Shown here: positions 22,909-25,037 of the stretch, piece after piece
How the letters are laid out: every line of letters begins with the position of its first letter
Position numbering within the stretch: the stretch's first letter is position 1
DNA from: Agromyces sp. S2-1-8
Lineage (GTDB): Bacteria; Actinomycetota; Actinomycetes; Actinomycetales; Microbacteriaceae
NCBI RefSeq assembly: GCF_021129215.1
Contig: NZ_JAJOLP010000001.1
Span: 2,480,001 to 2,544,000 of the forward strand
Length of the DNA stretch: 64,000 nucleotides
Direction: 5' to 3'
Notes under the pieces: model-generated
Seen by the model: only the letters and a program-made list of their open reading frames with translations
The model's database searches: none
What the model was told of the DNA's origin: nothing
Translations under genes and position numbers: made by a program

Positions 22909-22912
<4 letters not shown>

Positions 22913-23790
22913 CCGACGAGCTCATCCCGTTCGGCGAGCGGCTCGGCGCCGTCTTCGCGGCCTACGGTCGGCTCTGCGTCGGCATCGACCCGCACGCCTC
23001 GCTCCTGTCGGCGTGGGGCTACGACGACTCGGCAGCGGGCGTCCGCGAATTCGGGCTGCGCGCCGTGGATGCCGCGGCCGGACGCGCCGGCATCGTCAAG
23101 CCGCAGGTCGCCTTCTTCGAACGGCACGGCGCCGCCGGCTACGCGGCCCTCGAGCGCGTGCTCGCCGAGGCGCGCGACGCCGGGCTCCTCGTGATCGCCG
23201 ACGCGAAGCGCGGCGACATCGGGACGAGCGTCGACGCCTACGGCGAGGCGTGGCTGCGGCCCGGCTCGTCGCTCGAGGCCGATGCCATGACGATCAGCGC
23301 CTTCCAGGGCCTCGGGTCGATCGAATCGGTCATGGGCGCGGCCGAGCGATGGGGCAAGGGGCTCTTCGTGCTCGCGGCGACCTCCAACCCCGAGGCGGCC
23401 GCCATCCAGCGCGCCGTGCTCACCCAGTCGAGCCGCGAGGGGTCGACGGTCGCCGGCGCGATCGCCTCGGGCGTGACGAGCTGGAACCAGGGTCGTCCCG
23501 ACGCGGCGGAGCGCGAGTTCGCCTCGATCGGCCTCGTGCTCGGCGCGACCGTCGACCTCTCGGCAGCGGGGATCGACGTGCACGGCGACGTGCCCCGGCC
23601 GGGTCTCCCGGTCCTCGCTCCCGGGTTCGGCCACCAGGGCGGCGAAGTCCGCGACCTGCGCGCGATCTTCGGCGCCCTCTCGGCAGGCGTCATCGTGAGC
23701 GAGTCGCGGTCGCTGCTCTCGGCCGGTCCCGACGGCCTCGCCGACGCCGTCGCGCGCCGCATCGACGAGATCGGCGCCATCGATGTCTGA
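22909..23790 (+). CDS. pyrF: Orotidine 5'-phosphate decarboxylase (type 2)
   Basis: 293 residues from GTG 22909, with GGAGGAG at 22897-22903. Decarboxylates OMP to UMP. Catalytic motif [19 protein letters not shown] with the Lys/Asp network, the substrate segment [15 protein letters not shown] and the phosphate-loop GFGHQGGEV; the length fits the actinobacterial type 2 subgroup. PyrK/PyrD and pyrE are not in the operon. Its stop overlaps gmk by 8 bases. Confidence 0.95.
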
Positions 23791-24703
23791 TCGTCCCGTC
23801 ACCGCCGCCAACCCGCCCGAGGTCGACCGCGTCGCAGCCTCGCGCGCCGCCGTCGCCGCGCGACGGGCGCGCGCGGGCGTCAAGGCCGAGGTCGCCGCCT
23901 CGCGAAGGAGCCCGCTCGATGTCCTCCGCGTCGCCTACGAAGAGCCGGAGGGCGTCGAGGGGCGACTCCGGGTCACCGAGTTCCTGACGTCGATCCCCGC
24001 GATCGGCGCGACGAAGTCGGCCCGCATCATGCAGGACCTCGAGATCTCGACGTCGAAGCGTCTCGGCGGCCTCGGCCGCCTGCAGCGACGTCGGTTGCGC
24101 GAGTTCATCGCCGAGTGGGTCGCCGCCCACGGCGGCACCGGCGATCGTCTCGTGGTGCTCGCGGGGCCGACCGCGGTCGGCAAGGGCACCGTCGCCGGGT
24201 ACATCCGCCAGCACCACCCCGAGGTCCGGCTCTCGGTCTCGGCGACCACGCGCGCGCCGCGGCCGGGCGAGGTCGAGGGCGAGAGCTACTACTTCGTCGA
24301 CGACGCCGAGTTCGACCGCATGGTCGAGGCGGGCGAACTGCTCGAGTGGGCGACCGTGCACAACGCGTACCGCTACGGCACCCCTCGCAAGCCGGTGGAG
24401 CAGGCGATCGCCGCCGGCCAGAGCGTGCTGCTCGAGATCGACATCCAGGGCGCACGCTCGGTGCGACGTGCGATGCCCGACGCGACCCTCGTGTTCCTGC
24501 TGCCCCCGAGCTGGGACGAGCTGGTGCGCCGGCTCGTCGGCCGGGGCACCGAGACGGCCGCCGAGCAGCAGCGTCGACTCGAGACGGCGAAGGTCGAACT
24601 GGCCGCCGTCGACGAGTTCGACCACCAGGTCGTCAACCACGACGTCGGCGAGGCCGCCCAGAAGGTCGTAGACTTGATGCGACCTCGCAAGGGCCGACGC
24701 TGA
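23783..24703 (+). CDS. gmk: Integration host factor (mIHF)-guanylate kinase fusion protein
   Basis: 306 residues in one open frame. About residues 12-118 match actinobacterial integration host factor: [17 protein letters not shown], then [21 protein letters not shown], the helix-hairpin-type DNA-binding part, and [16 protein letters not shown]. Residues 119-306 are a complete guanylate kinase: Walker [10 protein letters not shown] (128-136), the GMP site [32 protein letters not shown] and [15 protein letters not shown]. In mycobacteria and streptomycetes mihF is a separate gene next to gmk. Here no stop, start or ribosome-binding site separates them. It phosphorylates GMP to GDP and probably also binds DNA. 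The ATG at 23783 overlaps pyrF by 8 bases. Confidence 0.9.
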
Positions 24704-24779: not shown

Positions 24780-25037
24780 ATGGCTGAGAAGCAGTCCGGC
24801 ATCATCGACCCGCCCATCGACGACCTGCTCTCGAAGGTCGACTCGAAGTACCAGCTGGTCATCTTCGCGTCGAAGCGCGCGCGCCAGATCAACGACTACT
24901 ACGCCGACCTGCACGAGGGCAGCCTGTTCGACAACGTCGGCCCGCTCGTCGACTCGTCGATCGACGACAAGCCGCTCTCGGTCGCCATGCACGAGATCAA
25001 CGAAGACAAGCTGCGGCTCCGCCCCCTCGGCGAGTGA
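24780..25037 (+). CDS. rpoZ: RNA polymerase omega subunit
   Basis: 85 residues. Small subunit that helps assemble beta-prime into RNA polymerase. The actinobacterial omega pattern is clear: [35 protein letters not shown] and [21 protein letters not shown] at 24767-24772 is a good ribosome-binding site for ATG 24780. The 76-base gap after gmk holds no promoter-like hexamer that I can support. Its stop codon lies inside a perfect hairpin. Confidence 0.96.

Follow-up and report, generated by a model that had tools for sequence, protein, structure and literature searches.

Guanylate kinase (Gmk) and the nucleoid protein mIHF are encoded as a single polypeptide in Agromyces sp. S2-1-8. Within the window, by which we mean the whole stretch of 64,000 nucleotides that was analysed, the open reading frame at 23783..24703 on the forward strand specifies one 306-residue protein, in which an mIHF/sIHF domain is followed by a complete guanylate kinase. 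We regard it as virtually certain that this fusion exists and that it is a trait of the family to which the strain belongs. The reading that we favour, with a probability of about 0.65, is that two old neighbouring genes became one when the stop codon between them was lost, which produced a bifunctional Gmk with a weakly DNA-contacting domain.

The fused frame is open from ATG to TGA over 306 codons, with no internal stop, and overlaps the 3' end of pyrF by 8 nt. Both halves exceed the curated cut-offs of their profiles: NF041260 (actino_IHF) matches residues 15-108 (23825..24106, forward strand) with 69.3 bits against a cut-off of 60, and TIGR03263 (guanylate kinase) matches residues 122-299 (24146..24679, forward strand) with 218.3 bits against 160.45. 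Pfam agrees (H2TH_5, 49.1 bits; Guanylate_kin, 137.7 bits). These matches bear out an earlier sequence-only reading of the same DNA, which had proposed the fusion at these coordinates and with similar domain boundaries. The actino_IHF model is of the type 'equivalog_domain' at NCBI, from which we infer that the curators regard it as a domain possibly sitting within larger proteins. Residues 13-107 of the window protein also matched the solved structures of mIHF (6tob; phmmer E 9.9e-12) and sIHF (4itq/6bek; E 2.6e-10), and structure comparison gave the sIHF/mIHF fold for this domain, matching the DNA-bound form. The two domains are separated by a linker at residues 116-121 (24128..24145, forward strand), which lies between the last mIHF helix and the first strand of Gmk and was delimited from the confidence of the predicted model. 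Block 111-120 has a mean pLDDT of 73, with flanking blocks at 96 and 91, and the pTM is 0.72; since the linker is less confident and the pTM is at this level, the model leaves the arrangement of the domains unfixed.

Directly upstream of the fused gene is pyrF (22909..23790, forward strand; stop TGA at 23788-23790, start picked by eye), and directly downstream is rpoZ (24780..25037, forward strand), followed by coaBC and metK. In a search of 101 loci including the window, which reached to about 19 kb from gmk, homologues of carB and pyrF were each found in 100, of rpoZ in 98, of metK in 97 and of coaBC in 85, a count that scores presence and not order. In M. tuberculosis, according to the text available to us of PMC6155035, mihF is likewise followed by gmk and rpoZ, both of which had to be supplied along with it owing to polar effects.

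The window genome (4,099,562 bases in 2 contigs, 99.99% complete) gave one match to NF041260 and one to TIGR03263, both of which are the fused frame; profile searches with these models thus found no second mIHF and no second Gmk in this genome. The sequence-only reading had called for a genome-wide search of this kind, and had argued that, if no further mihF turned up, all IHF function must come from the fused form. The copy number fits that argument, which nevertheless needs qualifying, given the remodelling of the domain and the five genera in the family that have Gmk without mIHF. The same genome holds one HU-type protein (PF00216). A profile search of it for Lsr2 (PF11774) gave no match; Lsr2 is described, in the portion of PMC8406272 available to us, as occurring throughout actinobacteria.

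The family of the window, f1 in our genome set, is the Microbacteriaceae, judged by named relatives. An open-frame check of its 85 sampled genera found the fusion in 78, Gmk alone in 5, a split pair in 1 and neither gene in 1; of the 78, 71 came from one reading of the loci, and two further readings added four (g13, g23, g39 and g45) and three (g30, g40 and g55). NF041260 matched 183 of the 199 sampled genomes of the family (184 before the removal of G013, whose match is ribosomal protein S13). A search among named genomes gave a similar picture, the best 80 of 563 loci comprising 39 fused loci, 40 with separate neighbouring genes and 1 in which no mIHF was found. All but one of the 39 fused loci belong to Microbacteriaceae, the remaining one being an unplaced Actinomycetota MAG, and none of the 40 separate loci is given as Microbacteriaceae (2 carry an order but no family). 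The window has its closest named relatives in Agromyces (87% and 80%). The sharing of the fusion by relatives, as a family trait, had been expected from the window alone, and these counts confirm it.

Since the one-frame structure recurs in 78 of the 85 sampled genera, a sequencing artefact is unlikely. Indeed, no stop or frameshift splits the domains in the window frame, the 39 named loci are open likewise, and we put the chance that a sequencing or assembly error erased a stop codon at practically nil. Nothing in the window favours such an error; overlapping mIHF and Gmk frames were seen only in genus g10 (sole genome G009, 86% complete, locus L105), where the split is itself probably a frameshift error.

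The absences in the family are of several kinds. Five genera (g11, g14, g66, g71 and g81) have Gmk without mIHF and no true NF041260 match. Twelve loci (L091-L094, L096-L098, L100, L106, L112, L114 and L115) show Gmk alone, their genomes having no NF041260 match except one to S13, and in 9 of the 12, those picked up by the filter applied, a pyrF frame stops at or near the gmk start. Completeness of the g66 and g81 genomes is as low as 59-84%, yet the mIHF domain is absent from the gmk loci that they do show. Neither gene was found in g62 (75% complete), and two further genomes, G099 and G177 (66% and 88% complete), have no NF041260 match although their genera are fused in other genomes. Because five genera have Gmk without mIHF, mIHF seems to be dispensable in parts of the family.

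Candidate second copies of mIHF appeared as weak NF041260 matches in nine genomes of the family, and G013 had a weak match only. By eye, nine of these ten matches (L390-L399) were ribosomal protein S13 and the tenth (L392) was an ABC-transporter-like ATPase, and all were rejected. NF041260 hits S13 weakly at about 20-23 bits, which is a trap in counting mIHF copies.

Outside the family, mihF and gmk are usually separate neighbours, as the sequence-only reading had stated. Both genes were present at 28 of 30 of the best-scoring order-level loci, the mihF stop and the gmk domain being 17-104 nt apart and many gmk starts lying near or overlapping that stop. In the 40 separate named pairs the spacing was 5-185 nt, and 13 pairs were in the same frame. 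Since the genes adjoin so closely, all that a fusion takes is a lost stop codon or a slight change of frame. We also read 40 loci with a profile match through both genes and a counted stop, picked from among the matches listed and not at random. All 34 of those outside f1 and a second family, f44, were separate (20 from other classes, 14 from other families of the class), and the other six, 5 from f1 and 1 from f44, were fused. Counting a stop within the profile match had been tried as a test for fusion and was dropped, since fused loci also score one, probably the stop at the end of the match. The sequence-only reading had suggested listing Gmk architectures across Actinomycetota; the loci read here from other classes are all separate, and the spread of the separate state points to its being ancestral.

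A class-wide scan of 394 genomes with the fused profile gave, among the matches listed, one-frame fused matches outside f1 in f44, whose genomes are of 1.2-1.9 Mb, and in one genus (g268) of family f51. The fetched loci comprised 17 fused from f44, 2 fused from f51 and 1 separate from f50; 3 further f44 loci were fused. The loci with a fusion outside f1 are L301-L319, L330, L331 and L385. Separate forms occur within the same families, at 4 f44 loci (g288, g297 and g299) and at 9 f51 loci from 6 genera, and six f51 genomes of genera g236 and g277 (G643, G754, G784, G800, G837 and G851) have no NF041260 match, perhaps a further loss of mIHF, their sister genera being separate or fused. Rhodopsin genes were found in 5 of 6 f44 genomes tested, two of the five belonging to separate-gene genera; the small genomes and rhodopsin genes of f44 fit, we assume, the freshwater acI actinobacteria (Nanopelagicales). 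A viral structure search returned 35 matches at E <= 0.001, those with names being Gmk-like or unrelated. A phage protein annotated 'Integration host factor MIHF' (BFVD A0A8S5VG65, 95 residues) matched the mIHF domain at E 1.9e-3 with a TM score of 0.75 on the target; its length excludes it as a viral fusion.

The fusion has arisen at least twice, and probably three times. A Gmk tree was built from 85 rows, of which 39 were separate, 38 fused and 8 without mIHF. In it the fused rows of f44 and f51 stand apart from those of f1, each in a starred group shared with separate rows. Of the 24 fused f1 rows, 21 are united in a single starred group, together with those of g66 and g71, and the other three (L125, L131 and L144), which have long branches, are placed elsewhere in an open fork. 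In AU tests that left the rows without mIHF free and allowed re-splitting inside f44 and f51, and that were designed after the tree had been seen, a single origin of the three sets of fusions was rejected (p-AU 0.005), as was one origin for f1 with f44 (p-AU 0.023); f1 with f51 (p-AU 0.055) and f44 with f51 (p-AU 0.31) were not rejected. Stricter tests, run first, had given p 1.6e-7 for all fused rows as one clade and p 0.008 for f44 with f51, but were judged to demand too much, as both the genera without mIHF and the separate rows of f44 are nested within the fused ones. A laxer test against 15 order-level separate rows rejected nothing (f1 with f44, p 0.48; f1 with f51, p 0.39), but demands little, because those rows nearly form one branch anyway. 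Within f44, the mixture reflects either re-splitting or repeated fusion.

The genera without mIHF were placed on a tree built with FastTree from six proteins, Gmk and mIHF being left out. Genera g66 and g71 lie beside the fused g63 (support 0.98) in a clade otherwise made up of fused genera (0.999), and since they are nested among fused genera they probably lost the mIHF domain after fusion. By contrast, g11, g14 and g81 form a clade (support 1.0) at the base of the family (0.9), and therefore either lost the fusion or never had one.

We compared 72 fused f1 rows (71 genera, Agromyces twice) with 37 distinct standalone domains of the order, an alignment that also delimits the H2TH loop of the window protein at residues 92-101 (24056..24085, forward strand). 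Mean identity of the mIHF domain was 52% in the fused set and 72% in the standalone set, with Gmk at 70% and 68%, a contrast inflated by the standalone set being drawn mostly from best-scoring loci. Other samples were also diverse, at 54% in fused f44 domains, 49% in the 4 separate f44 domains and 44% in 20 separate domains from other families; because of these last 20, looseness is not peculiar to fusion. The window's 69.3 bits compare with about 139-149 bits for the best-listed standalone members of the order. In a comparison that does not depend on that choice of loci, NF041260 E-values among the matches listed were at most 9.3e-31 in genomes outside the family, the best in f1 being 2.7e-23, although the model may itself be built on standalone proteins.

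The changes fall on basic residues. Three lysines that are invariant in the 37 standalone domains (22, 38 and 61), together with the mostly present K76, are largely gone in f1: K22 is A in 66/72 rows, K38 is A in 45/72, K61 has become T, R, S or G, and position 76 is mostly non-basic. The standalone loop of the order, mostly R-R-x-R/K-G-L-G-x-x-Q, has also changed, typically from RRVRGLG to KR[L/V]GGLG, with R92 becoming K in 71/72 rows and the third loop arginine G in 68/72, none of the 72 keeping R or K there. The window loop retains two of its three basic residues (K92 and R93), the third being G, and so departs from RRxR; the three basic residues of that motif presumably have a role in DNA binding. 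Fused f44 domains differ mainly at the third loop position and keep most of the lysines (K22 in 16/19, K61 in 15/19 and K76 in 17/19). Across the class, R or K stands at the third loop position in 0/93 fused rows and in 53/61 separate rows (8/61 being without it). As a mark of fusion this arginine was rejected, several separate genes outside the class having Q or G; given that variation, and the relatedness of the rows by descent, the difference is an association and no rule. Two separate mIHF genes from other classes (L363 and L364) carry strongly altered loops, SKTIGGLSERQ and SKTISGLSERQ, without fusion.

The lysine losses and the third loop residue mean that DNA binding may be weak or lost, and they speak for a neutral fusion, whereby the mIHF domain would no longer bind DNA and would be kept as a structural N-terminus of Gmk, serving stability, solubility or oligomer contacts. 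The dN/dS values (NG86) might be taken the same way, since that of the mIHF domain (0.18-0.44 in the 13 pairs that were usable out of 14 chosen) exceeded that of Gmk (0.09-0.32 in 12 usable pairs) in 11 of 12 usable shared pairs, pyrF lying mostly within the mIHF range. Being below 1 but higher than for Gmk, however, these values indicate purifying selection that is looser on the mIHF domain than on Gmk, and they lie well below what a domain without constraint would suggest. Further, R27, R30, A31, K34, G75, L97 and Q101 are invariant in both the f1 and the order sets and K92/R93 nearly so in f1, arginine has become commoner at positions 102 (63/72) and 104 (48/72), and the net charge of the fused mIHF domain, at +7.7, is above the +5.9 of standalone domains (the Gmk part has -7.6). 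The match of the fold to the DNA-bound form points the same way. The five genera without mIHF cut both ways, in that Gmk is intact there without the domain, as a neutral fusion would allow, but can evidently dispense with a structural N-terminus. On balance we consider a neutral fusion unlikely, and judge that the domain probably still binds DNA in the cell.

In the kinase half, the sequence-only reading had described an intact Walker A loop at residues 128-136 (24164..24190, forward strand), and a conserved loop is indeed present: across 74 fused proteins there is no variation at G128, P129, V132, G133 or K134, and conservation of T130, A131, G135 and T136 is at least 90%. 'Intact' needs qualifying, as GPTAVGKGT has Gly where the usual P-loop consensus has Ser/Thr (GKG-T as against GK-S/T). 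The same loop occurs in many separate Gmks of the order and is therefore the norm of the lineage; most f44 Gmks have GPGGVGKST. In addition S153, R157, R160, Y169, E188 and D220, which we take to be GMP-site residues, are invariant or nearly so in the 74 proteins. Because the fused frame is the sole Gmk match in its genome, GMP kinase activity is expected, and the domain is predicted to be an active enzyme.

The joined gene might still yield separate products, through an internal start before Gmk or proteolysis in the linker. The linker is the less confident part of the model, and 42 of the 72 rows have an in-frame ATG, GTG or TTG in the junction stretch; but such a start with a Shine-Dalgarno-like stretch was found in only 6/72, fewer than in control windows placed within gmk, where the mean is 19%; an ATG was present in 5/72. 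That scan was insensitive, detecting 0 of 15 true separate gmk genes. We hold separate products to be highly unlikely.

We therefore return to the favoured reading, a bifunctional enzyme born of the joining of neighbours. An old pair, mihF followed by gmk, would have been joined by loss of a stop codon or frame break. The polypeptide would stay uncut, its N-terminal domain most likely making weak contact with DNA, without sequence preference, via the remodelled surface, and its C-terminal domain converting GMP to GDP. Such a join would make the two activities co-translated, one-to-one and co-localised, so that the nucleoid would carry some of the only GMP kinase that the cell has. The parts of PMC3724605 available to us report that mIHF binds DNA without sequence preference and that recombinant mIHF-80 is a homodimer in solution; sIHF is reported, in the accessible text of PMC10028186, to bind DNA as a monomer.

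Beyond co-localisation, the two halves might influence each other, either by DNA binding altering the kinase or by GMP or (p)ppGpp on Gmk altering DNA binding; a Gmk dimer, if formed, would also pair two mIHF domains and bridge DNA. The same fusion having arisen more than once would suit such cross-talk, as would the report, in the available part of PMC6783271, that Gmk of B. subtilis and E. coli forms a dimer, with the contacts between its subunits determining inhibition by (p)ppGpp, so that an added domain could matter. Yet adjacent genes may fuse without any selection for cross-talk, the less confident linker and pTM of 0.72 give no fixed domain arrangement, and five genera manage without the mIHF domain; we rate cross-talk as quite improbable. 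Very doubtful, too, is its boldest form, a chromosome-held GMP kinase with two or three origins that, by pairing two DNA-binding domains in a dimer, would couple guanine nucleotides, including (p)ppGpp, with nucleoid architecture.

Among the open-access papers searched we found no mIHF-Gmk fusion, and none that treats both Microbacteriaceae and guanylate kinase; a report may exist elsewhere. The parts are known families, but we met in print neither their joining nor its distribution across a family, and neither the repeated origins nor the losses. A nucleoid protein reported (PMC6155035, in the text available) to be essential in M. tuberculosis, and among its ten most abundant proteins, is in nearly all of this family a domain of the only Gmk found. 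Its copy number thereby follows that of Gmk, and some genera lack it. That the fusion has more than one origin suggests that, for these two genes, joining either is useful or happens very easily. The fused, free and absent states among relatives amount to natural experiments on the need for mIHF, and a plain 'guanylate kinase' annotation would conceal the only mIHF of such a genome.

Among known systems, the nearest to the N-terminal half are mIHF of Mycobacterium and sIHF of Streptomyces (6tob, 4itq and 6bek), which are homologous to it and share its fold. Those are free proteins of about 105 residues, whereas the window domain is part of a 306-residue enzyme and has a changed loop and changed lysines. 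The other half corresponds to bacterial guanylate kinase (TIGR03263; M. tuberculosis 1s4q and 1znw), for which the solved chains are listed at about 180-245 residues and contain Gmk alone; to these the window protein adds a 118-residue N-terminal part with a domain of DNA-binding type. A guanylate kinase domain inside a larger protein is likewise found in MAGUK and PALS1. The GK domains of MAGUK-type multidomain proteins are mostly protein-binding and, unlike that of the window protein, are not joined to nucleoid proteins.
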